Both the position numbers and the translations under genes were made by a program. From positions 1-54,690 of the forward strand of contig JAUYJO010000078.1 of NCBI GenBank assembly GCA_030700315.1: DNA of 54,690 bases. The letters are read 5' to 3'. Under the pieces are notes generated by a model. That model ran no database searches. It saw nothing but the letters and a program-made list of their open reading frames with translations, and was not told the DNA's origin. This stretch comes from Gallionella sp. Its GTDB lineage: Bacteria; Pseudomonadota; Gammaproteobacteria; Burkholderiales; Gallionellaceae. Positions 4,306 through 54,690 of this stretch are shown here, one piece after another (the stretch's first letter is position 1; the number at the start of each line of letters is the position of its first letter).

Positions 4306-4428
4306 CTACTGAGTGGTTTGCACCTCTTTTACAAGCCATTCTTCAGCCGTGATTTCAACACCGTTCTCCGGTGACTTCGCAATCGTTAGTTCTGACTCAT
4401 CGCTCAGTAGGATGAAAGCTGGTAGCAT
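4306..4428 (-). pseudogene. small hypothetical protein remnant
   Basis: A 40-codon minus-strand frame starting at ATG 4428 with protein-like composition (MLPAFILLSDESELTIAKS...). The same frame is open a little further upstream (HGCQEG), which suggests the 3' end of a longer gene. It is convergent with the fragment at 4135-4290 with a gap of 15 bp. No family is recognised. Confidence 0.3.
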
Positions 4429-4498
4429 TCCCTCTTGGCATCCATGATTTACTTGGCTTCAGCATGGCTGACCGCTATAAAAAATCCAGGGAAGTCTG

Positions 4499-4579
4499 AT
4501 GGCAAAAGCAGCAACGAAAAACTCCACAGCCAACACCGGTTTCGAGGCCATCCCGCGCCTCGATCTATGCGTACGATAA
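4499..4579 (+). pseudogene. N-terminal fragment of a type I R-M methylase (hsdM-like)
   Basis: The 26-codon frame begins MAKAATKNSTANTGFE, a beginning I associate with many HsdM proteins (normally continuing into the N6_Mtase N-terminal domain). Homology is lost after residue 16 and a stop follows at 4577. This is the left-most piece of the broken defence-gene zone. It is distinct from the intact hsdM at 10494. Confidence 0.45.
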
Positions 4580-4588
4580 AAACTGATC

Positions 4589-5400: not shown

Positions 5401-5556
5401 GCCGACCTTGTGGATACCAGCTCCGCCCGCCTGCTGTATGACTCGGCGCGGCTCGCCTTTCGCAATGGTGCGGGGTCGTTTCGTGCGCTGGCCAAACTTC
5501 CTTTCCGGCCTCGCTCCTGCCAGATGGTGCCGCTCATCATGGCCTTGCGGCAGGAG
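5401..5556 (+). pseudogene. N-terminal fragment of an SNF2-type helicase (DrmD-like)
   Basis: The frame reads [19 protein letters not shown] then [16 protein letters not shown]. This matches the start of the ATPase domain of large SNF2-family helicases such as DISARM DrmD, where RPR(S/P)YQLVPLLMAL is followed by the Walker A segment. The Walker A is missing: homology stops at about 5556, where the sequence switches to an inverted piece of the same protein family. It abuts the DUF1998-helicase fragment directly. Confidence 0.55.
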
Positions 5557-5880
5557 TCGGCCACCAGCACCCGTAGCGGCGACTTGCCCATTTCTTCAAT
5601 GCGCTGCTTGCGCAACTTGTCCGGCAGCTCACTGGTGATGACTCGCAGGTCGAGCTTGGGAAATTTCTTCTTGAGCGCGGGCGCAAGCTGTTCGCCAACA
5701 TATTTTGCCGTGGCGATGTAGCGGCAGAAGATGACAGGGTTCAAACCGCTATTCAGCCAGTCGTCGAGGATCAGTTCGGCGAAGGAGAGTTTTAGATCTT
5801 GTTTTAATGTTGCCGAGTTGTTCCAGTTGTTTGGCAAAATCGCGCAGCTCTTCTCTTTGCTGTTTCGTCCAACCGCTCAT
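5557..5880 (-). pseudogene. inverted C-terminal helicase fragment of the same SNF2-type protein
   Basis: On the minus strand, from ATG 5880, one frame reads KQQREELRDFAKQLEQLGNIK. After a frameshift near 5805 another reads [31 protein letters not shown] ... [21 protein letters not shown] ... LRVLVADS. That is the helicase_C lobe of SNF2-type enzymes (motif IV region NPVIFCR and motif V region VLVAT/D). It is cut where it meets the plus-strand N-terminal fragment at about 5556. Head-to-tail inversion plus frameshift shows the gene is dead. Confidence 0.6.
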
Positions 5881-5972
5881 CAAGCACTCACTCGACTACC
5901 TGATTGCCGAGCGCCTTGAGAAGGCGAGGGAGTTAGCGAATAGCGAAGTAGCGATTAAGGGAAGGAATATTT

Positions 5973-6053
5973 ATGTCCATCAACTCGTATCAAGACCTGA
6001 CCGTGTGGCAGAAAGGAATGCAACTGGCGGAGGACTGTTATCGGCTCACGTGA
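5973..6053 (+). pseudogene. truncated four-helix-bundle (S23/IVS-type) protein
   Basis: Twenty-six codons (MSINSYQDLTVWQKGMQLAE...) match the beginning of the about 120-aa four-helix-bundle proteins often found as 23S rRNA intervening-sequence proteins or near mobile elements. A purine-rich stretch (GGGAAGGAA) lies 5' of the ATG. The frame stops at TGA 6051, where homology is lost. The 5881-5972 stretch before it has no recognisable gene. Confidence 0.6.
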
Positions 6054-6065
6054 CGGTTCGCGACG

Positions 6066-6557
6066 ATGCCCGGCAACGACAAGGACACCGCCGCGCTGCT
6101 CAGGAAGCGCAATAAGCAGGAGCGCAAGGATCACGAGGCTGGCCAGTTGCCGCTCTCGCCCAGCTTGCAAAAACAGCTCGATGATATTCTGCGCGGCTGG
6201 CGCGATCTCGCTACGTTGCCGGAACACACGCCCGACGAAATCGAGGCCAAGAAGGCCCGCTACCTCGCCTTCAGCCAGAGCGATGACGCATGGTTCCTGA
6301 ACCAGATCGCCGCCATTCCCATCGCCCAGTTCTACCTGCCCAAGGCGGCGGACAACCTGCAAAAGTTCATTACTGATGCCACCTACCGGCGCTACTGGAA
6401 AGGCGAGATCATCCCGCAAGGTCAGGCCACCGCCGAGGCCTGGGTGATGGCCGAGCGCAAGCGCTTCTTCCACTGGTTTCTGGAATTCCCAGAGATCATC
6501 GGGCGGGGTGGGTTTGACTGCATCCTTGGCAACCCGCCGTATCTCGGCGGCACATAA
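6066..6557 (+). pseudogene. middle fragment of an N6-adenine DNA methyltransferase (DrmMI/Eco57I-like)
   Basis: The 163-aa frame contains a helical region followed by RKRFFHWFLEFPEI and FDCILGNPPYLGG. The latter carries the catalytic NPPY motif of N6-adenine methylases. The FHW(P)LEFPE(V/I)...NPP(F/Y)(M/L)GG arrangement is typical of the large methylases of DISARM and BREX-like loci. The SAM-binding motif I half and the target-recognition part are absent. The frame ends at TAA 6555 inside an attC-like site, so it looks cut there by recombination. With the SNF2 and DUF1998 helicase pieces it completes the set expected for a DISARM locus. Confidence 0.65.
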
Positions 6558-6608
6558 CCCTGCGCTCAAGCAGGGCTGCGCAAAAGCGCGCAGCCCCATA
6601 CGTTCGAC
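6551..6608. other. attC-like integron recombination site (degenerate)
   Basis: Starts CATAAC (R''-like, giving the stop of the methylase fragment), then TGCGCTCAAGC, a GGGCTGCGC-AAAAGC-GCGCAGCCC hairpin, and ends CGTTCGAC (R'-like, G^TTCGAC). The layout R''-L''-hairpin-R' is that of attC sites. R' departs from the GTTRRRY consensus and the L' part is poor, so I call it a relic. Confidence 0.45.
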
Positions 6609-6664
6609 ATGGAGTAGCGAAGCGCGCTAGAATTGCCCCGTTAGTTTTGAATGGAGTCCAGATC

Positions 6665-6892
6665 ATGAACACTCAACTCTTGCAGCAAGCTCGTGTGCTC
6701 GACATTGACGAGCAGATCGAGCTGGTTGAAGCCATCTGGGACGGTATTGTTAGTCGTGGTGCCGCGCCATCGTTGACCGAAGCGCAGAAAACAGAACTCG
6801 ACCGCCGCCTCGCAGATCATCTGGCGAACCCTAACGATGTGGTTTCCTGGAGCGAAGTAAAAGCAGCCGCTCTTGCCAAAATCAGGCAATGA
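6665..6892 (+). CDS. antitoxin of a ParE/RelE-type toxin-antitoxin pair
   Basis: 75 aa from ATG 6665, preceded by GGAG at 6653-6656; the frame is open upstream from a TTG but the RBS points to this ATG. It matches the 'putative addiction module component' antitoxin family (short helical protein with LELVEAIWD-like and WxEV motifs; here QIELVEAIWDGI and VVSWSEVKAAAL). Its stop overlaps the toxin ATG (ATGA at 6889-6892). It would bind and neutralise the downstream toxin and probably autorepress. The pair lies between attC-like sequences and could be an integron cassette. Confidence 0.85.
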   Translation: MNTQLLQQARVLDIDEQIELVEAIWDGIVSRGAAPSLTEAQKTELDRRLADHLANPNDVVSWSEVKAAALAKIRQ

Positions 6893-10493: not shown

Positions 10494-12674
10494 ATGAGCG
10501 CCAACGCCTTGCAGAATATTTCCAAAATTGAAGACAGCCTGTGGGAGGCTGCCGATCAGTTGCGTGCCAATTCCAAGCTGACCAGCAGCGAATACTGTAT
10601 GCCGGTGCTGGGGGTGATTTTCCTGCGCCATGCCACCAACCGCTATCAGGCCGCGTTGCAGGCTATCGAGGCCGATCAGGCTGCCGGGAAAATGCCCAAG
10701 CGCACACTGGTCAAAAGCGATTTCATCAAGCGCCGGGCGCTGATGCTGCCCGAGATCGCGCGCTACGATCATTTGCTCAAGTTGCCTTCCGGCGCCAATC
10801 TCGGCGCGGCATTGGTCGAGGCCATGAATGCCATCGAGGCCGACTTCGAGCCGCTGGCCGGGCAATTGCCCAAGGACTACGACCGTTTCGAGAACAAGCT
10901 GCTCGAAGACCTGTTGCGCAATTTCGACTCGGAGGCATTGCGCAAGGCATCGGGCGATGTGTTCGGTCGCATCTACGAATACTTCCTGATGAAATTCGCC
11001 ATGCAGGGCGCGCAGGATAACGGCGAATTCTTTACCCCGCCCTCGCTGGTGCAAACCATCGTCAATGTCATCGAGCCTGACCATGGTGTGGTATTCGATC
11101 CCGCCTGCGGCTCTGCGGGCATGTTCGTGCAGTCCAGCCACTTCATCGAGCATGAAGGGCTGGACACCATGAAGCGCGTCACTTTTTATGGTCAGGAAAA
11201 AACCGCCACCACCATCCGCCTCGCCAAGATGAATCTGGCGGTGCATGGGCTGGAGGGCGACATCCGCGAAGCCAATTCCTTTTACGACGACGTACACCGC
11301 TTGCAGGATGGCCGCGCGTTGTGGGGCAACTGCGATTTCGTCATGGCCAATCCGCCGTTCAACGTGGACATGGTGGATGCCGAGCGCGTCAAGGACGACC
11401 GCCGCCTGCCCTTCGGCCTGCCCGGCGTGAACAAGGACAAGCGCGTTTCCAACGGCAACTACCTGTGGATTTCCTACTTTCACAGCTATCTGTCGGAGAA
11501 GGGGCGTGCCGGTTTCGTCATGTCTTCGCAGGCCAGCAACGCCGGCCATGGCGAAAAAGAAGTGCGGCGCAAGCTGGTGGAAACCGGCGACGTGGACGTG
11601 ATGATCGCCATCCGTTCCAACTTTTTTTACACCCGCACCGTGCCATGCGAACTGTGGCACTTCGATAAAAATAAACCCCCTCGCCCTCAGGGAGAGGGCT
11701 GGGGTGAGGGTGGGTTGTTGAACCACAAAGGCAACGTCCTGATGCTCGACGCCCGTAACATCTACCGCAAGGTCACGCGCAAGATTTACGATTTCAGCCC
11801 CGAGCAACAAGCCAACCTCACCGCCATCGTCTGGCTATATCGCGGGCAGCGGGAACGCTTCCTCGGACTGGTGCAGGACTACTGCATCCGACTCGCAAGC
11901 GAAAGCGCCGCCATCACCCCGGCGCTCACCGCCTTTGAAACCCGGCTCACCGCCAGTCGTGCACCGCTGGTGGCCGCGTTTGCCGATAGCGCCATCGCGC
12001 TCAATACGCTCACATCGGAAAAGCAGCGAGCCTTTGCCGATGCCATGGCCGAATGGGCAGAAGCCGCCAACGCCTACGTCACCGACCGCACCGCCCTGAC
12101 GGAAGCTCTTGTAGGGTGGGCACGCACCTGTGCCCACGCGGATTCAAAGACGACCAACGAAGCTCAACACACCACAAGACAAACCTTCGACCCTTTGGCA
12201 GATGCCGCGCGCGGCCTCATCAAACAGATAGACCTGCTCTACAAACTCGCCGCCCGCGCCGCACAGTTGGCGAATGAATTAGCGACGGATGAAACCGCCG
12301 TCGAGCTTTTCGACCGCCGCGCCACCAGCAAACTCATCAAGCAACTCGACGAAGAGCGCAAAACCGCCGTCGAACAACTCAAAGCCGCGACCTACATACA
12401 CCGCCAGATTGCCTGGTTGCAAGACCGCTTTCCCAACGCCGAAATGCAGGACGTGCCCGGCCTGTGCAAGGTTGTCAGCCGCACCGACATCGAAGCCGCC
12501 GATTGGAGCATTACCCCCGGCCGTTACGTCGGCGTCGCCCCGGTGGAAGTGGACGAGGACTTCGATTTCGAGCAGGCGTTGCGCGACATCCATGTGGAAT
12601 TGGCTGACCTGAATCGGGAGGCTGTGGGGCTGGCCGCGAAGATTCAGGAGAACTTCGAGGAGTTGGGGGCATGA
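10494..12674 (+). CDS. hsdM: type I restriction-modification system methyltransferase subunit HsdM
   Basis: 726 aa from ATG 10494 (MSANALQNISKIEDSLWEAAD; 5' extension of the frame covers the RHH gene and is rejected). N-terminal HsdM helical domain, then the N6-adenine methylase domain with SAM motif FDPACGSAGMF (about 201-211) and catalytic NPPF (about 286-289). It methylates adenine in the site set by HsdS. Two dispersed palindromic repeats are built into the frame: PPRPQGEGWGEGG (DNA 11675-11714) and VGWARTCAHADSK (DNA 12111-12150). Both fall after the catalytic core in a region of low complexity. Its stop overlaps the hsdS start. It is longer than many HsdM proteins, partly because of these inserts. 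Confidence 0.95.
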   Translation: MSANALQNISKIEDSLWEAADQLRANSKLTSSEYCMPVLGVIFLRHATNRYQAALQAIEADQAAGKMPKRTLVKSDFIKRRALMLPEIARYDHLLKLPSGANLGAALVEAMNAIEADFEPLAGQLPKDYDRFENKLLEDLLRNFDSEALRKASGDVFGRIYEYFLMKFAMQGAQDNGEFFTPPSLVQTIVNVIEPDHGVVFDPACGSAGMFVQSSHFIEHEGLDTMKRVTFYGQEKTATTIRLAKMNLAVHGLEGDIREANSFYDDVHRLQDGRALWGNCDFVMANPPFNVDMVDAERVKDDRRLPFGLPGVNKDKRVSNGNYLWISYFHSYLSEKGRAGFVMSSQASNAGHGEKEVRRKLVETGDVDVMIAIRSNFFYTRTVPCELWHFDKNKPPRPQGEGWGEGGLLNHKGNVLMLDARNIYRKVTRKIYDFSPEQQANLTAIVWLYRGQRERFLGLVQDYCIRLASESAAITPALTAFETRLTASRAPLVAAFADSAIALNTLTSEKQRAFADAMAEWAEAANAYVTDRTALTEALVGWARTCAHADSKTTNEAQHTTRQTFDPLADAARGLIKQIDLLYKLAARAAQLANELATDETAVELFDRRATSKLIKQLDEERKTAVEQLKAATYIHRQIAWLQDRFPNAEMQDVPGLCKVVSRTDIEAADWSITPGRYVGVAPVEVDEDFDFEQALRDIHVELADLNREAVGLAAKIQENFEELGA
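11675..11714. repeat. palindromic repeat inside hsdM (CCCTCTCCC family)
   Basis: CCCTCGCCCTCAGGGAGAGG followed by GCTGGGGTGAGGG; the same GC-rich element is intergenic at 925-1104. Here it is read through in frame as PPRPQGEGWGEGG between the helical part HFDKNK and LNHKGNVLMLD of HsdM. Confidence 0.75.
12111..12150. repeat. palindromic repeat inside hsdM (GTAGGGTGGGCA family)
   Basis: GTAGGGTGGGCACGCACCTG followed by TGCCCACGCGGATTCAAAGA, closely related to the intergenic copy at 7194-7260. It is translated in frame as VGWARTCAHADSK within a predicted helical segment of HsdM. Confidence 0.75.
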
Positions 12675-13834
12675 TGGACAACAGATGGAATGCTGTACGC
12701 TTGGCTGACTATTGCTCGAAGATCGGAAGTGGCGCAACGCCGCGAGGTGGAGAGACGGTCTATTTGGAAAGCGGCATCTCGTTTATTCGAAGCCAGAACG
12801 TCTACAACGGGTACTTTGATAGTGATGGCCTTGCCTTTCTTGACGAAGATCATGCGGAACAGCTCAAAGGCGTAGCGGTCGAGCCGGGAGATATATTACT
12901 CAATATTACTGGTGACTCGGTGGCTCGAAGTTGCCGTGCACCTGACGGCCTCCTGCCCGCACGAGTAAATCAGCATGTCGCGATCATTCGACCAAGAAGT
13001 GAGGATTTTGATTCGCGCTTTGTTAGCTACTTTTTTATCTCTCCATTCATGCAAGATACGATGTTGTCCCTTGCGGGAAGTGGTGGGACACGTAAGGCGC
13101 TTACAAAGGAAATGATTGAACGGTTCGAGATACCCAAGCCATCGCTACCGGTACAAGAAAGCATTGCCGACACCCTCTCTGCCTACGACGACCTGATCGA
13201 AAACAACCAGCGGCGGATGACGCTGCTGGAGGAGTCGGCGCGACAGCTTTACCGCGAGTGGTTAGTACGCCTACGCTTCCCCGGCCATGAGCATACCCGC
13301 ATCATCAACGGCGTGCCGGAGGGATGGGAGCGGGTGCCGTTGGAAGATGCACTGGTTTTGCAACGTGGATTCGACCTCCCAACTCAGGACAGACAGGAAG
13401 GGAACGTGCCGATATATGGTTCCACAGGCATCGTTGGATACCATGACAAGGCTAAAGCATCTGCACCCGGCGTGGTTACGGGACGAAGCGGAACCCTGGG
13501 GGAAGTGCAATACGTTGCCGATGACTACTGGCCGCTCAACACAGCGCTATGGGTCAAAGAGTTTAAACGGGTGACACCGTTGTTTGCTTTGTTTCTGCTA
13601 CGTGAAATGGACTTAAAACAATACAACGGCGGTGCGTCCGTTCCAACTCTTGATCGCAAGTCGGTGCATAAGATTGAAATCACAGTTCCCTCAAATATGC
13701 TGCTTAGCGCATTCGATGAATTTGCGACTGACGTTTTCGCGCAAATCAAGAACCTCAATGTCCAGAACCAAAAACTCCGCGCAGCCCGTGACCTGCTGCT
13801 ACCGCGCCTGATGAGTGGGGAGATCGCCGTATGA
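12671..13834 (+). CDS. hsdS: type I restriction-modification system specificity subunit HsdS
   Basis: 387 aa. Two target-recognition domains separated by long helices: TRD1 about 1-160, ending in the conserved helix IADTLSAYDDLIENNQRRM, and TRD2 about 205-345, ending in QNQKLRAARDLLLPRLMSG. These give the bipartite DNA target of the enzyme, which cannot be read from the sequence. Start ATG overlaps the hsdM stop (ATGATGG at 12671). Its own stop overlaps the next gene (ATGA at 13831-13834). Translational coupling at both ends argues for one mRNA. Confidence 0.93.
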   Translation: MMDNRWNAVRLADYCSKIGSGATPRGGETVYLESGISFIRSQNVYNGYFDSDGLAFLDEDHAEQLKGVAVEPGDILLNITGDSVARSCRAPDGLLPARVNQHVAIIRPRSEDFDSRFVSYFFISPFMQDTMLSLAGSGGTRKALTKEMIERFEIPKPSLPVQESIADTLSAYDDLIENNQRRMTLLEESARQLYREWLVRLRFPGHEHTRIINGVPEGWERVPLEDALVLQRGFDLPTQDRQEGNVPIYGSTGIVGYHDKAKASAPGVVTGRSGTLGEVQYVADDYWPLNTALWVKEFKRVTPLFALFLLREMDLKQYNGGASVPTLDRKSVHKIEITVPSNMLLSAFDEFATDVFAQIKNLNVQNQKLRAARDLLLPRLMSGEIAV

Positions 13835-44955: not shown

Positions 44956-45912
44956 TCACTCAGCGGTGAGGGCTGCGCCACTGGCGCCGCCACGGGCATG
45001 ACCTGGAACGCCGCCCTGGCTGCCGCAAAAGATGCGAATTTCGCTGGTCACAGCGACTGGCGCTTGCCGAATATAAAGGAGCTCGAATCCATCGTCGAGT
45101 CTTGCGGCTACAACCCGGCCATCAACCGGACTCTGTTTCCGGCCACACCTGATGAGTATTTCTGGTCGGGTTCGTCGTATGTCCCGGATACTTCCCAAGC
45201 GTAGTACGTCGGTTTCGGCTATGGCGATATTTATGGCTACAATAAGACGTTCGTCCACTATGTGCGCTTGGTTCGTGGCGGGCAGCCCTTCGATTCTTTC
45301 GATGCGCAGGATGACACCACCCCCGCCCCCTTCAGCTTCACCGCGCAAACCGGCGTGGCGCTTTCCAGCGTAGCAACTTCCAACACCATCACCGTGTCCA
45401 GCATCAACGGCGGGGGCTACACCGCCGTGGCCGGTACGGTGAACAACGGTGACGAGGTGGCCGTGCAACAGACCTCCTCCGCCAGCTATAGCACCCTCAC
45501 TACCGCCACCCTCACCATCGGCGGGGTGAGCGACGTGTTCCAAGTCACCACGCTCAATCTCGCGGTCAGCAGCATCGTCGTCGATCCGGCCGCGCCAGCG
45601 ATCCTTTACACCGGCCTCGACGATGCCGGCATATACAAAAGCACCGACGGCGGCGCAAGCTGGATCGCCGCAAGCACCCAGCCGACCAACACGCGCATCA
45701 AGGCTCTGGTCATCAAGCCGGGCGGCGGCGTGTTCAAGAGCAGCGACAGCGACATGATCTGGAGCGCCTGCACCCAGCCGACCAACCTGAACCTGCTTTC
45801 CCTGACGATGGATGCCAGCGGCAAGCTCTACGCAGGCAGCGAGGCGGGGGTGTTCGTCAGCAGCGACGGCTGCGCGAGCTGGGCGGCGATAAACACCGGA
45901 TTGCCGTTCTGA
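44956..45912 (+). pseudogene. DUF1566/C-type-lectin-like protein A, 5' truncated and with an internal stop
   Basis: Begins in mid-protein after the MITE (EGCATGAATGMTWNAALAAAKD), continues through WRLPNIKELESIVESCGYNPAINRTLFPATPDEYFWSGSS to an in-frame TAG at 45202-45204, then resumes in the same frame to 45912. Domains: DUF1566 lectin-like fold, one Ig-like repeat (FSFTAQTGVALSSVATSNTI) and a YCF48/sialidase-like beta-propeller segment (LYTGLDDAGIYKSTDGGASW). No signal peptide remains. The TAG falls inside the 126-bp variable segment (45160-45285), where A-directed mutagenesis could create it. Confidence 0.8.
45160..45285 (+). other. DGR-like variable region A
   Basis: 126 bp from TTCTGGTCGGG to GGCGGGCAG. 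Same length and flanks as region D (50641-50766), with which it shares the last 24 bp exactly. Differences lie mostly in first and second codon positions of NNY codons. Confidence 0.7.
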
Positions 45913-45943
45913 CCGCCATGAACGATCTTTTCAGGAGACTTAC

Positions 45944-46096
45944 ATGAGTTTTCCCGCCCTTTTCTTGCCCGCTTCCGCCCGCGCCCTGTGCGCAGCCGCC
46001 CTGTGTGCCCTCGCCACCGGCTCCGCTCTCGCTGCCGCGCCGTTTGTCGATAACCTCGACGGCACCGTCACCGACACCTCCACCGGGCTAAACTAA
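45944..46096 (+). pseudogene. N-terminal fragment of another DUF1566-type secreted protein
   Basis: 50 codons from ATG 45944 (RBS CAGGAGAC). A signal peptide (SFPALFLPASARALCAAAL ... GSALA) followed by FVDNLDGTVTDTSTGL, the usual start of a DUF1566 domain (DGTVTDTxTGLMW). Homology is cut at TGL and a stop follows in AAACTAAATC. It lies 31 bp after copy A, so paralogue genes were probably tandem here before a deletion. Confidence 0.75.
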
Positions 46097-46201
46097 ATCA
46101 ATTTTGATATATCGTCAAGGCTAAATGATTAAAGGTTTATCGCGGACGATCATGTCGGCTTTGCCCCAGCGCGCTCAATAACCAGGCGCAAGCGGGGTGG
46201 G

Positions 46202-46375
46202 CTACCGGGCTTCGCTGCGCCGCGAAGAATCCGGCTTTCTTGTCGAGCCCCTGGCCGCGACGAGCATGATCTCCCGCACCTCCGGCGACGCGGCGCGATA
46301 GCCCTGCAACAGCTCGTTTTCGTCGGGTGTGGTGCGATTCGAACTGATGAGTACCGGATAGTCAGACAAGCTGGA
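46202..46375 (-). other. remnant of a regulatory-protein C-terminus, uncertain
   Basis: Minus-strand frame reading DENELLQGYRAASPEVREIM, similar in style to the end of XRE/S24-type regulators, lacking any start. The interval 46097-46376 otherwise has no gene. The DNA lies between the truncated DUF1566 fragment and the LuxR gene. Confidence 0.25.
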
Positions 46376-46376
46376 A

Positions 46377-47189
46377 TCAGAGGCCGGTTTTTCCGCCGCG
46401 CAGCCAGAGCGTCATCAAGCCCATCCGCCCGCGCACACCGAGTTTCGCGTAGATGCTGGCGGCGTGCTGGTGGGTAGTGCGGTAGCCGATGCCAAGATGC
46501 CGGGCGACTTCCTTTTCGCTGGCATCCGTCAGCAGCAGCTTCAGGACATCGCGTTCGCGCAGGCTGAACAGCGAGGAGACGTTCGCCAACCCCTTGGATA
46601 GCAGCAGCTCGCGCTGGAACGTCCGGCTGCCGAGCAGGAAGAAGCAAAGCAGGTCGCGCTCGTAGTCGTCGAACGGCTGTTCGCCGTGGCATCGGTCCAG
46701 GGCGAAATGGGATTCGCAGTTTGCCGAGATGACATGCCCGCCTTCCAGCCGGTCGTCGATGCGCTCCTCTTCCAGCGCCTCGCGCACGATCCAACTGCTG
46801 CGCCAGCATTTATCATCCACCAGCTCGCGGCGCAGGTTGCTGCGCGTCTGACCGGCGCGGCGGGCGATCGCGCCGACATAAGGGTCGGCCTGCCCGGCGT
46901 CGAGGCGTCCTGCAAGCTCGCGTGCCATGGACAGCCGCCGTTCCTGGTGGTGCAAGTGTTCCACGCCGCGGATGCGCCAGCCGAGCAGCGGATCTTCTGC
47001 CGCTACCTCCGGCTGGCGGCAGATGCCCACCCACGTGGCATTGCATGCGCCGACCAGACCGCGCAACTGCTCCAGGCAATGGCGCAGCGCGGCATCGCAT
47101 TCGGCGGCGGGCGCATCCGCCAGATCCCACCACAAATCAGCCAGCAGGCGCATGTCCGCATCCTTGAGCATTCTCGTTGACGACGCCAT
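46377..47189 (-). CDS. LuxR-family transcriptional regulator
   Basis: 270 aa. C-terminal LuxR HTH about 205-262 (FSLRERDVLKLLLTDASEKEVARHLGIGYRTTHQHAASIYAKLGV). The N-terminal about 200 residues look like an uncharacterised sensor domain: GHVISANCESHFALDR, with no receiver or autoinducer motif recognised. It is transcribed divergently from the DUF1566 gene B and could control that array; a family-2 MITE lies between them. No target is proven. Confidence 0.85.
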   Translation of the reverse strand: MASSTRMLKDADMRLLADLWWDLADAPAAECDAALRHCLEQLRGLVGACNATWVGICRQPEVAAEDPLLGWRIRGVEHLHHQERRLSMARELAGRLDAGQADPYVGAIARRAGQTRSNLRRELVDDKCWRSSWIVREALEEERIDDRLEGGHVISANCESHFALDRCHGEQPFDDYERDLLCFFLLGSRTFQRELLLSKGLANVSSLFSLRERDVLKLLLTDASEKEVARHLGIGYRTTHQHAASIYAKLGVRGRMGLMTLWLRGGKTGL

Positions 47190-47287
47190 ATCACCCCCGT
47201 TTCGGCGCGGCCCGGCGGGTTGCCGTATCCGCTAATCGGCGGATTGTAGCAATGCCGGGCAACCGCGACAATCAGCCGCTGCTTGCC

Positions 47288-47449
47288 GGGTGCGATCATA
47301 AAGTGTTGGTCAAAGAAGTGGAAGTAGGGCGGAAAAGCGTAGCGCCTTCCGCCGTATGGAGGCTTGGCTATGACGAAACATTCGGCGGATAACGCCTTCG
47401 GCTCATCCGCCCTACATAAGAAGATGCACCAACACTTTTGATTGCACCC
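47288..47449. mobile_element. MITE-like element, family 2, complete, with target duplication
   Basis: 162 bp with terminal inverted repeats GGGTGCGATCATAAAGTGTT and (reverse) GGGTGCAATCAAAAGTGTTG. Flanked by a direct repeat CTGCTTGCC at 47279-47287 and 47450-47458. The paralogous stretch at 49612-49700 (CCGCTGTTTGCCGACCC) is the same sequence without the element: an empty site. Internal arms GTAGGGCGGAT. No ORF. Confidence 0.85.
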
Positions 47450-47557
47450 CTGCTTGCCGGCCCAGAGCTTGAATTTTCTGGGACAAGAAACCGAAAGAAA
47501 CCGAAGAGGAAATACCATGCGACACACAGCGACCAGCTCAACAGCTCCGCCACACAC

Positions 47558-47584
47558 GGCTATCGGGGGCAAGCCCCCTCCTAC
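47558..47584. repeat. REP-like palindrome in the leader of gene B
   Basis: ATCGGGGGCAAGCCCCCTCC then TACC. It lies in a frame open from ATG 47517 (reads GGKPPPT) upstream of the signal-peptide start. The same leader with a similar REP occurs in gene D. Confidence 0.6.
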
Positions 47585-47618
47585 CTTGCAAAACCATCCC
47601 TCCACGGAGCCACAAACC

Positions 47619-48356
47619 ATGATCCGCTTTTCGCGCGTTGTTTCGTTCGCCCTGCTGCTCGGCGTCAGCCTCTCCCTCCACGCGGCGCCCACCGGACTGC
47701 TCAACGACACCGGGCAGGACACTTGCTACAACGACACCGTAGCCGATGGCGTGGCCGCGTCCGGCCCGGCCAGCATCGCGCGCGATGCGGGAACCCATCC
47801 GCGCCAGGATTGCCGCTTCGGGCGCGACGCCGCTGCTGCTGCCGGGGTGCTGACCAAAACCGGCGCGGGCGCCAAAGGTTTCGACTACACCAGAGTGTGC
47901 TTCAACGGCGATCCGGAAGGCAGCGGCGCCTGCACCGGCGCGCTCGTCGCCAACACCACCGATACGGCGACGGGGACGCCGTCCACCGACTGGGCCTGCA
48001 CCAAAGACAACGTCACCAACCTGATCTGGTCGCTGCAAAGCGGTTATGGCGACTGGACGACCTACGCCAACGCCACGCTCCCCAATGCGACCAATGCCGC
48101 CGCCCGCTGCGGCTACGGCACCGGCTGGCGCCTGCCCACGCGGCGCGAACTGTTCTCCATCATGCATAACGGCGCATCAATTCCCGCCATCGACAGCGCC
48201 TATTTCCCCAGCACGCAGAGCAATTGGTACTGGAGCGCCGACACTTATGCGCCTGTTCCGGCCGTCGCCTGGGGTGTCGTTTTCTACAATGGCGGCGCCG
48301 GCGCCAGCAATGAGTCCAATAGCGGCTATGTTCGGCTTGTGCGTAGCGGACAGTGA
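47619..48356 (+). CDS. DUF1566/C-type-lectin-like secreted protein B
   Basis: 245 aa from ATG 47619 (signal peptide IRFSRVVSFALLLGVSLSLHA). An in-frame ATG at 47517 with a strong RBS (GAGGAAATACC) is the alternative start; its leader contains a REP and is conserved with gene D, so the true start is unresolved. Cys-rich N-terminal segment (GQDTCYNDT, HPRQDCRFGRDA), then DUF1566 (WRLPTRRELFSIMHNG) and a variable 126-bp segment ending YVRLVRSGQ at the very C-terminus. Unlike copies A, C and E there is no beta-propeller tail. Likely exported and exposed, binding an unknown ligand. Confidence 0.8.
   Translation: MIRFSRVVSFALLLGVSLSLHAAPTGLLNDTGQDTCYNDTVADGVAASGPASIARDAGTHPRQDCRFGRDAAAAAGVLTKTGAGAKGFDYTRVCFNGDPEGSGACTGALVANTTDTATGTPSTDWACTKDNVTNLIWSLQSGYGDWTTYANATLPNATNAAARCGYGTGWRLPTRRELFSIMHNGASIPAIDSAYFPSTQSNWYWSADTYAPVPAVAWGVVFYNGGAGASNESNSGYVRLVRSGQ
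48228..48353 (+). other. DGR-like variable region B
   Basis: 126 bp, TACTGGAGC to AGCGGACAG. With region C it shares the last 36 bp except two, and 16 of the 21 codons that differ in the slightly longer aligned stretch keep the third base. Confidence 0.72.
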
Positions 48357-48403
48357 TTTTGCCCTTCGATTGCTTGACATCTTCTACCCCGCAGAGGCCC
48401 GAC

Positions 48404-49603
48404 ATGATCCGTCCATCCCGATTTTTCAAAAGCGGCGCGCTGGCGTTGCTCGCGCTCCTTTTTGCCCTGCCCGCGCAGGCCGCCTACAACGACAACAATG
48501 ATGGCACCGTCACAGACACGGTCACCGGCCTGATGTGGGACAAGTGCTCCTGGGGGCAGAGCAACAATGTGACCTGCGCCGGCGGCGCGGCCAGCACCCA
48601 TACCTGGACACAGGCGCTGGGCGTGGCGGTCAGCGCCAATAGCGCGAGCTACAAAGGCCACAACGACTGGCGCCTGCCCAACAGGAACGAGCTGGAATCG
48701 CTGGTGAAGATCGACGTGAGCGATCCGGCCATCGATGCCACGGCCTTTCCGAATACGGTATCGGATTGGTACTGGACTTCGACCAACTATGCGCCTGATC
48801 CGACCGCCGCCTGGCTTGTCTATTTCTACGATGGCTACCCCGACGCCAACGGTAAGACCTTCTACGGTTATGTTCGGCTTGTGCGTAGCGGACAGTCTTT
48901 TGACTCTTTTGATGCGCAACCGGATTTCACCCCGGACGCGTTCAGCTTCATCGCCCAGACTGGCGTGGCGCTCTCCAGCGTGGCGACCTCCAACACCATC
49001 ACCGTCGCGGGCATCAACAGCGCGGCGAACATCAGCATCGTCGGCGGAACTTACTCGATCAACGGCGGGTGCTACACCAGCACGCCCGGCACGGTGAGCA
49101 ACGGCGACGAGGTGACGGTGCGGCAAACCTCCTCCGCCAGCTACAACACGCTCACTACCGCCACCCTGACCATCGGCTGGATTGAAGGGTCGTTCCATTT
49201 CGTCACGCTCAATCTCGCGGTCAGCAGCATCGTCGTCGATCCGGTCGCGCCAGCGACCCTTTACGCCGGCATCGACGGTGCGGGCGTGTACAAAAGCACC
49301 GACGGCAGCGCGAGCTGGAGCGCCGCAAGCACCCAGCCGACCAACACGCGCGTCAAGGCACTGGTCATCAAGCCGGGTGACAGCGCCGCGCTGTTCGCCG
49401 CCACCTACGGCGGCGGCGTGTTCAAGAGCAGCGACAGCGGCGTGAACTGGAGCGCCTGCGCCACCCAGCCGGCCAACCTGAACCTGCTTTCCCTGACGAT
49501 GGATGCCGCAGGCAAGCTCTACGCAGGCAGCGAGGCGGGGGTGTTCGTCAGCAGCGACGGCTGCGCGAGTTGGGCGGCGATGAACGCCGGATTGCCGCTC
49601 TGA
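48404..49603 (+). CDS. DUF1566/C-type-lectin-like protein C with Ig-like and beta-propeller tail
   Basis: 399 aa from ATG 48404. Signal peptide 1-27 (ALLALLFALPAQA), DUF1566 fold about 30-165 (DGTVTDTVTGLMWDKCSW, WRLPNRNELESLV) including the 126-bp variable segment (YVRLVRSGQSFDSFDAQ follows), one Ig-like repeat about 185-265, and a YCF48/BNR-like repeat region about 275-399 with LYAGIDGAGVYKSTDGSASW and VFKSSDSGVNWS. It is 48 bp after gene B and probably co-transcribed. Exported; function unknown. Confidence 0.85.
   Translation: MIRPSRFFKSGALALLALLFALPAQAAYNDNNDGTVTDTVTGLMWDKCSWGQSNNVTCAGGAASTHTWTQALGVAVSANSASYKGHNDWRLPNRNELESLVKIDVSDPAIDATAFPNTVSDWYWTSTNYAPDPTAAWLVYFYDGYPDANGKTFYGYVRLVRSGQSFDSFDAQPDFTPDAFSFIAQTGVALSSVATSNTITVAGINSAANISIVGGTYSINGGCYTSTPGTVSNGDEVTVRQTSSASYNTLTTATLTIGWIEGSFHFVTLNLAVSSIVVDPVAPATLYAGIDGAGVYKSTDGSASWSAASTQPTNTRVKALVIKPGDSAALFAATYGGGVFKSSDSGVNWSACATQPANLNLLSLTMDAAGKLYAGSEAGVFVSSDGCASWAAMNAGLPL
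48770..48895 (+). other. DGR-like variable region C
   Basis: 126 bp, TACTGGACT to AGCGGACAG. See region B for the codon pattern. Confidence 0.72.
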
Positions 49604-49797
49604 CGGAAGCGTCGCGACACAGCCCGACGGGCTGCCGCATCCGCTAACCGGCGGATTGTAGCGATGCCATACAACCGGGACAATCCGCCGCTGTTTGCCG
49701 ACCCAAGCTTGAAATTCCTGGGGCAAGAAACCGAAAGAAACGAAGAGGAAATACCATGCGACACGCAGCGAGCAGCACAACGGCTCAGCCACATACG

Positions 49798-49919
49798 ACC
49801 GTCGGGGGCAAGCCCCCTCCAACGGGTTCGTGCCCCGCCGTAGGAGCGGGTTTACCCGCGATTGCAACCATCATCGGGGCTAACACGCCCATCGGGGCTA
49901 AAGCCCCTCCTACAAAACC
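49798..49919. repeat. REP-like palindromes in the leader of gene D
   Basis: Three units: ACCGTCGGGGGCAAGCCCCC; GTAGGAGCGGGTTTACCCGC; ATCGGGGCTAAAGCCCCTCC. All three can be read in frame from ATG 49756 (GGKPPPT, VGAGLPAIA, IGAKAPPT). Between gene C and the signal-peptide start of gene D. Confidence 0.7.
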
Positions 49920-49971
49920 GCATCACGCCACCTTCCATCACGCCACTCTCACGAACCACGGAGCCACAACC

Positions 49972-50772
49972 ATGACCCTGTTCCCGCGTGTTTTCCTATT
50001 CGCACTGTTGCTTGCCAGCGCTCCCGCTCACGCCGCCGGCCTGCCCGACACCGGCCAGGACACCTGCTACAACGACACCGCCGCCGATGGCGTGGCCGCG
50101 TCCCATGCCGCCAGCATCGCCCGCGACGCGGGCAGCCATCCGCGCCAGGACTGCCGCTACGGGCGCGATGCGGCGGCGGCTGCGGGGCAGCTCATCAAGA
50201 CCGGCGCAGGCGACAAGGGCTTCGATTACAGCAAGATCGCCAACGACGGCAGCACGCTCGCCGCCGGAGCCGCGCTCGGAACCGCCGCCACCGATTGGGC
50301 CTGCACCAAAGACAACATCACCGGACTGACCTGGGAGGTCAAGGTCAACGACAACGCTCACCTGCGCCATCAGGGGCATACCTACACCTGGTACAACAGC
50401 GACGGCGCCACCAACGGCGGCAATGCAGGCAGCACCGGCGCCAACACCTGCAATGCCACCCTGCCCGGCAACCTGTGCAACACCGAGGCGTTCGTCGCGG
50501 CGGTCAACGTCGCCGCGCTCTGCACCTACACCGACTGGCGCATACCATCGCCGCGCGAACTCCTCACTCTGGTGCATGCCGGCACGTCCCTTCCGAGCAT
50601 CGACACGACCTATTTCCCCAACACACTGTTCGCGTCGCCCTTCTGGTCGGGTTCGTCGTATATCCCGAATCCTATCAGCGCGGCGTACGTCTATTTCCAC
50701 AATGGCGGTACCAGCGCCGGCAATAAGACGAACGTCCTCTACGTGCGCTTGGTTCGTGGCGGGCAGTTTTAG
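49972..50772 (+). CDS. DUF1566/C-type-lectin-like secreted protein D
   Basis: 266 aa from ATG 49972 (signal peptide TLFPRVFLFALLLASAPAHA); an in-frame ATG at 49756 behind GAGGAAATACC is the alternative. Same N-terminal module as B (GQDTCYNDTAADGVAAS, HPRQDCRYGRDA). DUF1566 with WRIPSPRELLTLVHAG, then the 126-bp variable segment. The gene ends right after it (GGQF stop); the sequence beyond (GCTCTTTTGATC) matches the SFDSFD codons of copies C and E, so D was cut short by a change at TTTTAG. The avd-like gene follows after 23 bp. Confidence 0.82.
   Translation: MTLFPRVFLFALLLASAPAHAAGLPDTGQDTCYNDTAADGVAASHAASIARDAGSHPRQDCRYGRDAAAAAGQLIKTGAGDKGFDYSKIANDGSTLAAGAALGTAATDWACTKDNITGLTWEVKVNDNAHLRHQGHTYTWYNSDGATNGGNAGSTGANTCNATLPGNLCNTEAFVAAVNVAALCTYTDWRIPSPRELLTLVHAGTSLPSIDTTYFPNTLFASPFWSGSSYIPNPISAAYVYFHNGGTSAGNKTNVLYVRLVRGGQF
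50641..50766 (+). other. DGR-like variable region D
   Basis: 126 bp, TTCTGGTCGGG to GGCGGGCAG. Compared with A, 17 codons differ and 13 of them keep the third base. AAT and AAC codons occur at several positions (aat cct; cac aat; aat aag; aac gtc) as expected of a template with AAY codons. Confidence 0.72.
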
Positions 50773-51115
50773 GCTCTTTTGATCTTTTGACGACATGGCA
50801 CGCTACGACCACCTCCCTATCTGGAAAGACGCGGTCAGCCTGGCTGCGCTGCTGGAAGAGGCGGTGCGGCGTTTTCCCCGTTACCACAAATACGCGCTGA
50901 ACCGCCAGGCCTACGCGGTGTGCCGTGGCGTGGTGGTGGCCGTCGAAGAACTCGAATTGCTGGTGCAAATGGGCAAGGAAGCGAAAATTGTAGGAGGGGC
51001 TTCAGCCCCGACAGCAGCACCAATCGCGGCTAAAGCCGCTCCTACAGTGGGAGGTGATGGTTTTGCGGGCGGCGATGGTTTTGTAGGAGGGGGTTCACCC
51101 CCGATTCGCCATGCG

Positions 51116-51589
51116 TCACAACCAAACCGCGTCCCAATGGGAATACTCCCGGACGGAACCGGCCAAACCGGCGCGCACGGGATTGGCGACGATGTAGCGG
51201 GCGATATTCTGCAAATCTTCCCCGTCGCGGACGGCCCGGTCGTGGAATCCGGCCTGCCAGACCGTGATGCCAGGTGTGCGGCGGCTCCGGTTGAGGGCGC
51301 CGCCGCTCAAAGATTTGAAGCGCCCGAGCAGATCGGGGAGCGTGGCATGGTTGAGTTGCAGCAACCAATGCAAATGGTCGGGCATCAGCACGAAGGCCAA
51401 GGTTGCGCACAGCCCCGCTTCATCGCAGGCGCGCAGTTCCCGTATCGCCAACCTGGCCAGATGGAAATCGGCGAACAAGGGCAAACGATTTTGCGTCACC
51501 GTGGTGACGAGATAGCCGCGCCCGATTTCGGAGACGCGACCAACGCGCAGATTGCCGCCGTGGGGACGTGTTGTCATGCCGACAATCAT
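51116..51589 (-). CDS. REP-associated tyrosine transposase (RAYT, Y1_Tnp)
   Basis: 157 aa; Met5 (51577) is an alternative start. HUH motif HLH (H72, H74) in FVLMPDHLHWLLQL, and the catalytic tyrosine Y132 in IARYIVANPVRAGL. These single-strand transposases bind and move REP palindromes. REP copies of the GTAGGAGGGGGTTCACC type flank it on both sides. It overlaps, antisense, the open tail of the avd-like frame. It looks intact. Confidence 0.88.
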   Translation of the reverse strand: MIVGMTTRPHGGNLRVGRVSEIGRGYLVTTVTQNRLPLFADFHLARLAIRELRACDEAGLCATLAFVLMPDHLHWLLQLNHATLPDLLGRFKSLSGGALNRSRRTPGITVWQAGFHDRAVRDGEDLQNIARYIVANPVRAGLAGSVREYSHWDAVWL

Positions 51590-51733
51590 GCCAGAAATAC
51601 CGGCGCTGTTGTAGGAGGGGGTTCACCCCAGATTCGCGGCAAACAAAACATCGCGGGTAAACCCGCTCCTACAGTGGGTGGCGATGGTTCCGCGACCGGC
51701 GATGGTTTCCCGACCGGTGATGGTTCCGCGACC

Positions 51734-51868
51734 GGCCAGATGGAAATCGGCGAACAGGGGCAAACGATTTTGCGCCACCGTGGTGACGAGATAGCCGCGC
51801 CCGATTTCGGAGACGCGGCCAACGCGCAGATTGCCGCCGTGGGGATGTGTTGTCATGCCGACAATCAT
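51734..51868 (-). pseudogene. duplicated N-terminal fragment of the RAYT gene
   Basis: About 45 codons (MIVGMTTHPHGGNLRVGRVS ... QNRLPLFADFHLAG) nearly identical to the start of the intact RAYT (51455-51589), cut where tandem 18-bp repeats begin. It is part of a direct duplication with an offset of 279 bp. Confidence 0.8.
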
Positions 51869-52433
51869 GCCAGAAATACCGGCGCTGTTGTAGGAGGGGG
51901 TTCACCCCCGATTCGCGGCAAGCAAAACATCGCGGGTAAACCCGCTCCTACAGGGGGTGGCGATGGTTCCGCGACCGGTGATGGTTCCGCGACCGGCGAT
52001 GGTTTTTCGACCGGCGACGGTTTTGTAGGAGGGGGTTTACCCCCGATCAGCATGGCGGCCAACCCCGCCCCTACCATTCCGGCCTCACACCTGCCGCGCT
52101 TGATTGCGGCGCTGCGCCGGGCGGGGCGAGCCTACGTCATTGTGCGTGAAGAAGGTTATCTCAAACAGGGCCTCAAGCGCCGTGTTTTGTCTGAAATCGG
52201 CTGGCATGGCAACGAAAAAGGCTTCCTGTAGGAGCGGCTTTAGCCGCGAATGCTGCACCCGAGACATCGCCATGACAACAAAAAAACGCCTCCCCGCAGG
52301 AGCTGCTTCAGCCGCGAATGCGAACGCCGGATTATCGCGGCTGAAGCCGCTCCTACAAAAATGTTCCACGAATTTATCCCACGTTAAATCCAGATTTTCA
52401 TTCTTCAAGCCGCATCCCTATCAGGAGTCCGAC

Positions 52434-53669
52434 ATGCATCGTAAACCATACCTTATCGCCGCCCTGCTCGCCCTGCTGTCCGCCGCTTTCGAGGCGGGCG
52501 CCGCCTGCACCGCAGGCAACCCCAATGCCAGCGTGGCCGAATCCACGCCGACCAGCGCCTTCACCGACAACGGCAACGGCACGGTCACGCATAACCTGAC
52601 CGGCCTGACGTGGAAGCAGTGCGCGGAAGGGCTGTCCACCACCACGACCGCTTGCGACACAGGTTCCGCCACGGCCATGACCTGGAGCGCCGCCCTGAGT
52701 GCTGCCGCCACGTCCGGTCTCGACGGCGGCGGCTGGCGTCTGCCGAACAAAAAGGAACTCGAATCCCTCGTCAAGCGCTGCGGTTACACCCCGTCTATCA
52801 ACCAGACCCTGTTCCCGGCCACGCCTCCGATGCTCTTCTGGTCGAGCTCGACGTATGTCCCGAGTTCTCCGAGCGCGTGGGGCGTGGTTTTCGACGTCGG
52901 CGATTCCGGTGCCGACGGTAAGACCAATGGCGGCTACGTTCGCCTCGTGCGTGGCGGACAGTCTTTCGACTCTTTTGATTCCCAGACGGGTATCACCCCG
53001 GACGCCTTCAGCTTCACCGCGCAGACCGACGCGGCGCGCTCCGGCGTGGCGACCTCCAACACCATCACCGTGACGGGCATCAATAGCGCGGCGTACATCC
53101 GCATCGTCGGCGGGACTTATTCGATCAACGGCGGAGCCTATACCGCCGTGGCGGGCACGGTGAACAACAACGACACGGTGACCGTGCGGCAGACCTCGTC
53201 GGGCAGCTACAGCACGCTCACCACCGCCACCCTGACCATCGGCGGCGTGAACAGCGCGTTCCAGGTCGCCACGCTCAATCTCGCGGTCAGCAGCATCGTC
53301 GTCGATCCGGTCGCGCCAGCGATCCTTTACGCCGGTTTCGACGATGCCGGCGTGTACAAGAGCACCGACAGCGGTGCGAACTGGACGGCGGCCACCATCC
53401 AGCCCGCCAACACGCGCGTCATGGCGCTGGTCATCCAGCCCGGCGACAGCGCCAAGCTCTACGCCGCCACTTACGGCGGCGGCGCGTTCAAAAGCGCCGA
53501 CAGCGGCGCGAACTGGAGCGCCTGCGCCACCCAACCGGCCAACCTGAACCTGCTTTCCCTGACGATGGATGCCGCAGGCAAGCTCTACGCAGGCAGCGAG
53601 GCGGGGGTGTTCGTCAGCAGCGACGGCTGCACGAACTGGGCGGCGATAAACACCGGATTACCACTTTAA
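52434..53669 (+). CDS. DUF1566/C-type-lectin-like protein E with Ig-like and beta-propeller tail
   Basis: 411 aa from ATG 52434 (RBS CAGGAGT; the longer frame upstream crosses REPs and is rejected). Signal peptide 1-24, DUF1566 domain about 30-175 (DNGNGTVTHNLTGLTWKQC, WRLPNKKELESLVKRCGYT), variable segment 52836-52961, Ig-like repeat about 190-275, then BNR/YCF48-like repeats (LYAGFDDAGVYKSTDSGANW, AFKSADSGANWSACATQ). Full-length counterpart of copies A and C. Exported; ligand unknown. Confidence 0.85.
   Translation: MHRKPYLIAALLALLSAAFEAGAACTAGNPNASVAESTPTSAFTDNGNGTVTHNLTGLTWKQCAEGLSTTTTACDTGSATAMTWSAALSAAATSGLDGGGWRLPNKKELESLVKRCGYTPSINQTLFPATPPMLFWSSSTYVPSSPSAWGVVFDVGDSGADGKTNGGYVRLVRGGQSFDSFDSQTGITPDAFSFTAQTDAARSGVATSNTITVTGINSAAYIRIVGGTYSINGGAYTAVAGTVNNNDTVTVRQTSSGSYSTLTTATLTIGGVNSAFQVATLNLAVSSIVVDPVAPAILYAGFDDAGVYKSTDSGANWTAATIQPANTRVMALVIQPGDSAKLYAATYGGGAFKSADSGANWSACATQPANLNLLSLTMDAAGKLYAGSEAGVFVSSDGCTNWAAINTGLPL
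52836..52961 (+). other. DGR-like variable region E
   Basis: 126 bp, TTCTGGTCGAGCTC to GGCGGACAG. Its flanks match the others but its 3' flank differs slightly (TTCGCCTCGTGCGTGGCGG). Confidence 0.68.
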
Positions 53670-53676: not shown

Positions 53677-54690
53677 ATGAAAATGACAACCCTGCGATTT
53701 CTTACGCTGTCCCTGCTCTTGTTCGGCACGTCCGCCCACGCCGTCGATTCCTGGGAGGGCTCCACCCCCTTCGCCACCGGCCTGGGCAACCGGGTCATTG
53801 GCGCACTGGCTGTCAGCCCCGACAGCATGACCGCCTACGCCGGAACCGGCAGCGGCACGGTGTTCAGGTATGTCTACTCCGATGCCGTACCCGATGCCTT
53901 CACCTTCACCGCACAGACCGGCGCGGCGTTGAATTCGGTAGCCACCTCCAACGCCATCACCGTGGCGGGCATCAACAGCGCGGCGAACATCGGCATCGCG
54001 GGCGGAACCTACTCGGTCAACGGCGGCGCTTATACCGCCGTGGCGGGCACGGTGAACAACGGCGACACCGTGACGCTGAAGCAGACTTCATCGGGCAGCT
54101 TCAGCACGCTCACCACCGCGACCTTGACCATCGGCGGCGTTGCCGGGGCGTTCGACGTCACCACGCTCGCGGCGGACACCACCCCCGACCCCTTCAGCTT
54201 CACCGCGCAGACCGGCGCGGCGTTGAATTCGGTAGCCACCTCCAACGCCATCACCGTCGCGGGCATCAACAGCGCGGCGAACATCAGCATCGCGGGCGGC
54301 ACTTACTCGGTCAACGGCGGGGGTTATACCGCCGTGGCCGGTACGGTGAACAACGGCGATGCGGTAGCCGTGCAACAAACATCCTCCGCCAGCCACAGCA
54401 CGCTCACCACCGCCACCTTGACCATCGGCAGCGTTGCCGGGGCGTTCAATGTCACGACGGTCGCCGCACCGGTTGTCGCTTCCCCGGTCCATGGTGTTTG
54501 CGGTGCCGCAAACGGTGTTGCCGCCAGCAGCGCGCCATCCGCCAACCGCTGCGCGACAGGCTCGTCCAGCGCAGTCGTCGGCTCCGGGCCGTGGACGTGG
54601 AGCTGCTACGGCAGCGACGGCGGCAGCAACGCAAGTTGCTCGACGCCACTCGCCCTGCTCAATCAAACCGTCAGCTTTGGCGCAGCACCC
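53677..54690 (+). CDS. secreted repeat-domain protein, runs off the window
   Basis: At least 338 codons from ATG 53677 (or 53683) with no stop before the window end. Signal peptide (MTTLRFLTLSLLLFGTSAHA), a short beta-propeller-like start (IGALAVSPDSMTAYAGTGSG), then two tandem Ig-like repeats of about 87 residues (FTFTAQTGAALNSVATSNAI ... and FSFTAQTGAALNSVATSNAI ...). These are the same module as in copies A, C and E. Then a VCGAANGVAASSAPSANRCA...GPWTWSCYGSDGG segment with paired cysteines, common in secreted repeat proteins. It follows gene E after 7 bp and is probably co-transcribed. Confidence 0.85.
   Translation, partial: MKMTTLRFLTLSLLLFGTSAHAVDSWEGSTPFATGLGNRVIGALAVSPDSMTAYAGTGSGTVFRYVYSDAVPDAFTFTAQTGAALNSVATSNAITVAGINSAANIGIAGGTYSVNGGAYTAVAGTVNNGDTVTLKQTSSGSFSTLTTATLTIGGVAGAFDVTTLAADTTPDPFSFTAQTGAALNSVATSNAITVAGINSAANISIAGGTYSVNGGGYTAVAGTVNNGDAVAVQQTSSASHSTLTTATLTIGSVAGAFNVTTVAAPVVASPVHGVCGAANGVAASSAPSANRCATGSSSAVVGSGPWTWSCYGSDGGSNASCSTPLALLNQTVSFGAAP

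Follow-up and report, generated by a model that had tools for sequence, protein, structure and literature searches.

Gallionella lectin-like genes as probable targets of two diversity-generating retroelements, with a candidate T-rich homing array

How can one retroelement rewrite genes that lie on another contig, and rewrite some of them in their middle? The question is raised by a stretch of DNA of 54,690 nucleotides from Gallionella sp. (hereafter the window; contig C151, G000:C151:1-54690), one of the 243 contigs of a 3.52-Mb assembly, in which five regions, A to E, sit in genes for lectin-like DUF1566 proteins. An earlier note, made from the letters of the window, had read them as the variable regions (VRs) of a diversity-generating retroelement (DGR), a system of reverse transcriptase (RT) and template repeat (TR) marked by adenine-specific mutagenesis, and our analysis supports this interpretation overall. 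We hold it very probable that the window carries the targets of two DGRs: B and C would be remote targets of a complete DGR on contig C157, D and E would flank a ruined one of which A is a dead copy, and a translatable T-rich array would allow VRs to lie inside genes.

A complete retroelement and targets rewritten in trans

The earlier note had staked its reading on an RT and a TR being present somewhere in the genome, and a genome-wide search found on C157 an RT, an Avd and a TR rich in AAC/AAT codons. This is the single complete DGR of the genome, with the order DUF1566 target 1, avd, TR, RT, target 2 (locus L029, C157:13000-21099; the coordinates that follow are counted within L029). Target 1 (3436-4152) has its variable region, V1, at the gene end and is followed by avd (4178-4612), the TR (4851-4951; 101 nt, 31 adenines) and the RT gene (5013-6890; 625 aa); target 2, from ~6888, has an internal variable region, V2, and runs to the contig end. 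The RT carries the motifs IGNLTSQ (I/L/V-GxxxSQ type) and YVDD (YxDD type), matches the PHROG reverse transcriptase (E 6.4e-89) and has as its best PDB sequence match 8ub7 (E 2.9e-34), which we take to be the BPP-1 enzyme; the I/L/V-GxxxSQ motif and 8ub7 are presumably both marks of DGRs. Avd, an accessory protein of most DGRs, scores 40.4 bits against Pfam bAvd, just above the cut-off of 40, and matches the PHROG Avd (E 8.5e-19); against NCBIfam DivGenRetAVD it reaches 36.2 bits, under the cut-off of 80. Over 101 aligned bases V1 differs from the TR at 13 positions and V2 at 16, all of them TR adenines. The motifs, the accessory protein and these repeats establish, on sequence evidence, that the element is a DGR. 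By eye, REP-like (repetitive extragenic palindromic) sequences stand in frame inside the RT open reading frame (ORF), at ~5394-5610 and 6400-6510, that is, between the motifs and in the C-terminal part, and the RT of a same-genus relative, G039, is without such inserts.

The genome has ten Lcl_C matches (PF07603, formerly DUF1566), and regions A to E fall in five of them, in keeping with the DUF1566 genes named in the earlier note. Five 126-bp regions are indeed present, 126 nt being an alignment frame, and the stretch common to the C157 TR and to B and C is 101 nt long (48249-48349 in B, 48791-48891 in C). Target gene B (47619..48356, plus strand; Lcl_C E 2e-24) has its VR at the C-terminus, and target gene C (48404..49603, plus; Lcl_C E 1.7e-36) has an internal VR followed by Ig-like and propeller-like parts, the latter matching 3b7f (E 4.6e-8). 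Aligned from 48222/48764, B and C differ at 21 codons, 16 of which keep the third base, exactly as counted before. Compared with the C157 TR, B shows 19 mismatches, 19 of them at TR adenines, and C shows 20, of which 17 are at adenines. The adenine-specific mutagenesis proposed for the window therefore stood for these two regions; A and D do not fit this TR. At non-adenine sites V1, V2 and B equal the TR at 70/70 positions and C at 67/70; in the sequence that precedes the repeat, identity is 501/605 between B and V1 and 318/371 between C and V2. Since the gene bodies have drifted and the repeat has been overwritten, B is best explained by rewriting in trans, and such body drift with an overwritten repeat is what retrohoming in trans would leave. 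B also adjoins C as the two C157 targets do, minus the avd-TR-RT core between them.

In mechanistic terms, a complex of RT and Avd would copy the C157 TR transcript with random bases placed opposite adenines, and the resulting cDNA would then take the place of the variable region, in B and C just as in the two C157 targets. These steps were worked out for phage BPP-1, and we carry them over here by analogy.

A further copy on contig C22 (G000:C22:10908-11255, L031) appears as a drifting additional target, with 29 mismatches to the TR, 17 of them at A, and 58/70 non-adenine sites equal. Another Lcl_C gene, on C230 (G000:C230:1679-2116, L030), is without a match to the C157 TR. A structure prediction of target C (6 rows) had a mean pLDDT of 32.5 and was discarded.

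Remains of a second retroelement

With the C157 TR, the share of mismatches at adenines was not enriched for A (14/34, P 0.11) or D (16/38, P 0.064), and both were rejected as its targets; E had 21/38 at adenines (P 0.0001), yet 17 other changes. The flank TTCTGGTCGGGTTCGTCGTA, noticed earlier as common to A and D, is exact at 45160 (A) and 50641 (D) and has 3 mismatches at 52836 (E), with a chance expectation of 0.00. The codon counts given for A and D were likewise reproduced (17 differing codons, 13 keeping the third base). No TR of this flank type was found in the genome, the assembly being 95.5% complete.

Target gene D (49972..50772, plus; Lcl_C E 7.8e-25) has a C-terminal VR (50641-50766) and target gene E (52434..53669, plus; Lcl_C E 4.1e-30) an internal one (52836-52961). 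Directly behind D lies an avd remnant (50795..50986, plus; 36% identity to the C157 Avd by tblastn, E 1.2e-10), which has an internal deletion and runs on into REP-derived sequence; the ORF fused from the two had no match in Pfam, NCBIfam, PADLOC or PHROG. At the place expected for the TR and most of the RT stand REP-like repeats, a gene for a REP-associated tyrosine transposase (RAYT; 51116-51589, minus, E 3.1e-40) and, inside the decayed DGR, a tandem 279-nt duplication (51455-52012), which together span 50988..52358 (no strand assigned). A C-terminal remnant of a DGR RT (52049..52231, plus) shares 67% identity with the RT on G039 contig C43 along 52 aa. The order D, truncated avd, REP/RAYT, RT remnant, E is the gene order seen on C157; between D and E neither a TR of its own nor an intact RT was found, only the avd and RT remnants.

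Among 76 genomes of the genus scanned with D and the sequence behind it, seven gave matches at E 0.001, one of them the source genome itself. The matches of G039 reach the variable region of D; those of the other five genomes are 33-45 nt long and lie outside it. G039 contig C43 retains the avd end, a TR, an RT and a target 2, and so provides a relative of the second DGR: its target 2 shows 14 mismatches to its own TR, 13 of them at A, and a remote VR on contig C574 shows 13 mismatches to the C43 TR, 12 at A (a second C574 VR, which has an indel, was left out of the counts). D is 76% identical to this TR over 131 nt, and mismatches at A amount to 14/31 for D (P 0.007), 17/35 for A (P 0.0006) and 19/39 for E (P 0.0002). 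This adenine enrichment and the avd and RT remnants between D and E identify A, D and E as the remains of a second DGR, decayed in the window. Its TR and most of its RT would have given way to REP/RAYT sequence, with D and E left at the flanks and A as a further dead copy. G039 as a whole has three DGR-like RT loci (L069-L072 are contigs C43, C507, C422 and C574) and two remote VRs, both on C574.

Region A lies in a 5'-truncated DUF1566 gene (44956..45912, left end approximate, plus), with its VR (45160-45285) followed by Ig-like and propeller-like parts. The Lcl_C match begins at profile position 15 and contains one TAG, and no start precedes it in frame; the 5' part has thus been lost and A is a pseudogene. 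The TAG, which the earlier note had put down to mutagenesis, would fit a template AAG, though the template itself is lost and the gene is dead.

Two side observations concern the surroundings of these genes. A further exported-type gene at 53680-54690 consists of the same Ig-like repeats as follow the variable regions, and repeats of this kind end both C151 and C157; between A and B, a 270-aa ORF (46377-47189, minus) resembles by eye a LuxR-type regulator.

Variable regions inside genes

The variable region lies inside the gene in A, C and E, and likewise in C157 target 2. The earlier note had called the internal position in A, C and E unusual, which is true in print: surveys place nearly all variable regions at the C-terminus and account for this by cis elements in need of an intergenic site (PMC8144416, PMC7517822), and another survey accepted a variable region only if it lay no more than 60 bp from the end of the gene (PMC4159848). 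Internal VRs are nonetheless recurrent among relatives. We scanned named genomes with the C157 RT and considered the best 80 of 308 relatives, 62 of which had a repeat pair by the set criterion; at 13 of these best 80 loci a target has an internal variable region, with 185 to 1094 in-frame residues behind it (L076-L080, L084, L088, L089, L094, L098, L102, L103 and L107). Target 2 of C157 and target 2 of G039 raise the set to 15, and this recurrence is well established by the comparison. The internal target of L094 reaches the contig end, and those of L077 and L103 have a broken or short frame ahead of the VR. Upstream targets, where found among these loci, have the VR at the C-terminus. On a tree of 50 RT rows, the 15 internal-VR rows require 5 changes, at least 3 of which well supported branches make unavoidable (from a quick search with SH-aLRT as the only support measure, covering 48 of the 62 paired named-genome loci; the 14 more distant ones were excluded by hand).

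L084 has an in-frame TAG inside its variable region (3833-3966), with 403 residues open behind it. Together with the TAG of region A, it represents the price of rewriting AAG when a domain follows. In L102 a single ORF contains two tandem variable regions (12118-12258 and 12553-12696), both internal.

A phased T-rich array behind variable regions

Beyond the homology with the TR, a T-rich tract stands behind the variable region whether the gene stops there or continues. It takes the form of an array of ~NATTTGRN octamers with an 8-bp phase, which recurs behind many variable regions and not behind TRs. The flank of C157 target 1, for instance, reads CAG TGA TTT GGC CCT TTT GAT, and that of window region C reads CAG TCT TTT GAC TCT TTT GAT. 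In the window, the array behind B (48354..48377, plus) begins at the stop codon, and its model match GATTTTGCCCTTCGATTGCTTGAC reaches 9.9 bits against a threshold of 7.9; the flank behind D (50767..50792, plus) reaches 9.7 bits. Behind C (48896..48913, plus) the sequence TCTTTTGACTCTTTTGAT is translated as SFDSFD, with T-runs 9 bp apart, and the flank of E (52962-52979, plus) also gives SFDSFD with the same spacing.

We quantified this tract in three sets, always given in the same order: named genomes, other relatives and viral loci, the controls being shuffled sequences, the flanks of TRs and stretches taken 60 nt further on. In the first 40 nt that follow the variable region, self-identity at lag 8 is raised with z 11.9 (60 loci), 8.3 (13 loci) and 8.9 (52 loci); at lag 16 z falls to 4.9 and 4.3 in the first two sets and to 1.1 in the viral set, which is additionally raised at lag 7 (z 8.0). 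Periodicity is flat 60 nt further downstream. A three-octamer model was trained on the named-genome set, with the other two sets kept out of training, although some of the relatives may also be in the first set. It scores above the 95% shuffle threshold at 27/60, 8/13 and 19/52 loci and at 0/60, 0/13 and 0/52 TR flanks. Another run gave 29/60, 9/13 and 22/52, the two differing through redrawn shuffles and dropped TR-less rows, and we quote the lower figures. These periodicity and model tests keep one variable region per locus. Pairs of TTT 8-9 nt apart occur behind 48/96, 6/14 and 23/75 variable regions, compared with 20.7, 2.5 and 8.4 in shuffles, and at 5/80, 1/14 and 1/63 TRs; these pair counts, like those of hairpins below, omit variable regions whose flank is shorter than 80 nt or duplicates another in its first 40 nt. 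Flanks individually significant at 0.05 number 40/96, 8/14 and 25/75, against 5/96, 1/14 and 2/75 at +60. Most single flanks are not significant individually, and the array is established as a statistical feature of these sequences.

The array is retained where it is translated. Codons were counted in a set of 15 internal tails, drawn from 11 of the named-genome loci, from C157 and G039, and from C and E of the window, with L084 and L102 omitted. In their first nine codons, T occupies 74/135 third positions compared with 2126/9625 in the rest of the ORFs (P 3e-16), and Phe is encoded by TTT:TTC at 21:2 versus 155:159 elsewhere. In 11 cassettes with both kinds of flank, non-coding and coding flanks agree at 108/198 positions in the first 18 nt and then at 57, 53 and 57; 5 of these 11 cassettes share no more than 7/18 within the opening 18-nt block.

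Hairpins (stem of at least 6 bp, 60% GC, loop of 3-6 nt, within 80 nt) were considered in place of the array and found to be a minority, behind 13/96, 3/14 and 15/75 variable regions, though above shuffles (1.6, 0.6 and 1.1); they seldom co-occur with phased T-runs (2, 2 and 1 variable regions). By the same criteria no BPP-1-like hairpin lies behind A to E, and one 6-bp stem stands at +63 behind V1. A hairpin has been published as efficient and not strictly required (PMC12875486), so its lack leaves the assignment of these regions to DGRs unaffected.

What a variable region needs behind it in the DNA may be a short array, rich in T, with a phase of 8-9 bp and translatable as a linker; this would be what permits internal variable regions. 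More broadly, we propose, tentatively and with belief falling slightly short of even, that about three octamers (NATTTGRN, 8 bp apart, sometimes 9), absent behind the TR, form a general DGR homing signal, that the initiation of mutagenic homing (IMH) element of BPP-1 is a degenerate case of it, and that its translatability lets variable regions sit inside genes. A tag repeating every 8 bases may, in short, mark where rewriting happens. Among the titles and abstracts listed in literature searches on DGRs, many of them off-topic, we found no description of such an array, and an earlier description is possible; it is also absent from the accessible text of PMC3240598, PMC3521204, PMC4372165, PMC4891356, PMC10907252, PMC12875486 and PMC7290462.

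Alternative explanations

B and C might have arisen by ordinary duplication followed by positive selection on the lectin binding face, the C157 TR being a broken target copy. DUF1566 genes are multicopy in this genome, with ten matches, and mostly kept third bases are also expected from positive selection on proteins. This account has next to no chance, given that every mismatch in B (19/19), V1 (13/13) and V2 (16/16) falls on an adenine of the C157 stretch, that the 70/70 identity at other sites contrasts with a 17% difference in the gene bodies, and that the C157 stretch has avd on one side and, on the other, an RT bearing DGR-type motifs. D and E, for their part, could still be rewritten by a second DGR merely absent from an assembly of 243 contigs and 95.5% completeness, and D retains its flank array at 9.7 bits; we consider this improbable, as the avd and RT remains lie exactly between D and E and the three RVT_1 matches of the genome are the C157 RT and two group II intron maturases (one TIGR04416, E 6.5e-112; the other a 99-aa piece, E 1.9e-26). 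A stronger contender, which we judge less probable than not by a clear step, is that the array is a by-product of slippage, T-rich 3' ends or cDNA integration and no recognised signal. Some arrays do resemble simple tandem octamers (L096, L203), the individually significant variable regions are limited to those counted above, and PMC3240598 holds, citing unpublished data, that most DGRs are served by hairpins rather than arrays. Against a by-product speak the lack of the array at TR flanks and 60 nt downstream, its retention in coding sequence with a matching codon bias, the fall of the best BPP-1 match on the VR end, where the IMH lies, and the reported role of the difference between IMH and IMH* in keeping the TR from being a recipient (PMC4891356).

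Several points weigh against our own account of two DGRs and a homing array. Contigs C151 and C157 are assumed to come from one cell, in a metagenome-like assembly that is 95.5% complete and 5.4% contaminated; present activity of the DGR would be a deduction from this one assembly; and the REP-like inserts may impair the C157 RT. Region C has 3 non-adenine changes relative to the TR, and the C22 copy has 12. In the window B and D pass the octamer model (9.9 and 9.7 bits) and A, C and E fail it (1.4, 2.8 and 3.8 bits), mainly because T-runs of the betaproteobacterial group tend to 9 bp; 7/15 internal flanks and 8/13 of their upstream partners pass. The codon-bias counts, moreover, derive from related loci.

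Significance and comparison with known systems

DGR homing was called incompletely understood in a 2026 paper (PMC12875486), and outside BPP-1 it is still an open question by what means a DGR recognises its target and leaves the template untouched. A sequence signal common to bacterial and viral DGRs, with a clear contrast between VR and TR, is directly testable by recoding. If true, the array as a homing signal would weaken the stated reason for C-terminal variable regions (PMC8144416), and it suggests that searches confined to gene ends would miss internal targets. In this genome, one RT would serve several surface-type proteins, and a dead DGR has left its targets behind.

BPP-1 shares with C157 the order target-avd-TR-RT, adenine mutagenesis and an element required for homing that lies behind the VR, beyond TR homology (PMC3240598); it differs in its GC hairpin behind the IMH, the A to E flanks being without one by the set criteria. 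At the 3' end of the BPP-1 VR the best 24-mer, TCTGTGACCACCTGATTCTTGAGT, spans the annotated VR end and scores 7.0 bits, a level that 9/2000 shuffles reach and that compares with 4.2 for the TR; it is a single case under the set thresholds of 7.2-8.0. When 22 bases are aligned, the TR shows 7 differences, and these include the adenine in all three GA steps, which lie 8 and 7 bp apart. The nanoarchaeal DUSEL4 DGRs also place a cis element inside the target gene, under both coding and DNA constraint, which there is a hairpin with a GRA loop and here a T-rich phased array (PMC4372165). Surveys report the same DUF1566 target domain and several targets per TR, with variable regions at C-termini (PMC4159848, PMC6642488). 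Treponema denticola, a different host with another target type, likewise has remote targets and a target left from a lost DGR (PMC4891356). The accessible text on Thiohalocapsa PB-PSB1 (PMC10907252) describes C-terminal lectin domains and mentions no phased flank array or internal variable region; that genome is otherwise similar, with several DGR loci, rewriting in trans from a TR elsewhere, and degenerate loci in which the RT or TR has been replaced by arrays resembling miniature inverted-repeat transposable elements.

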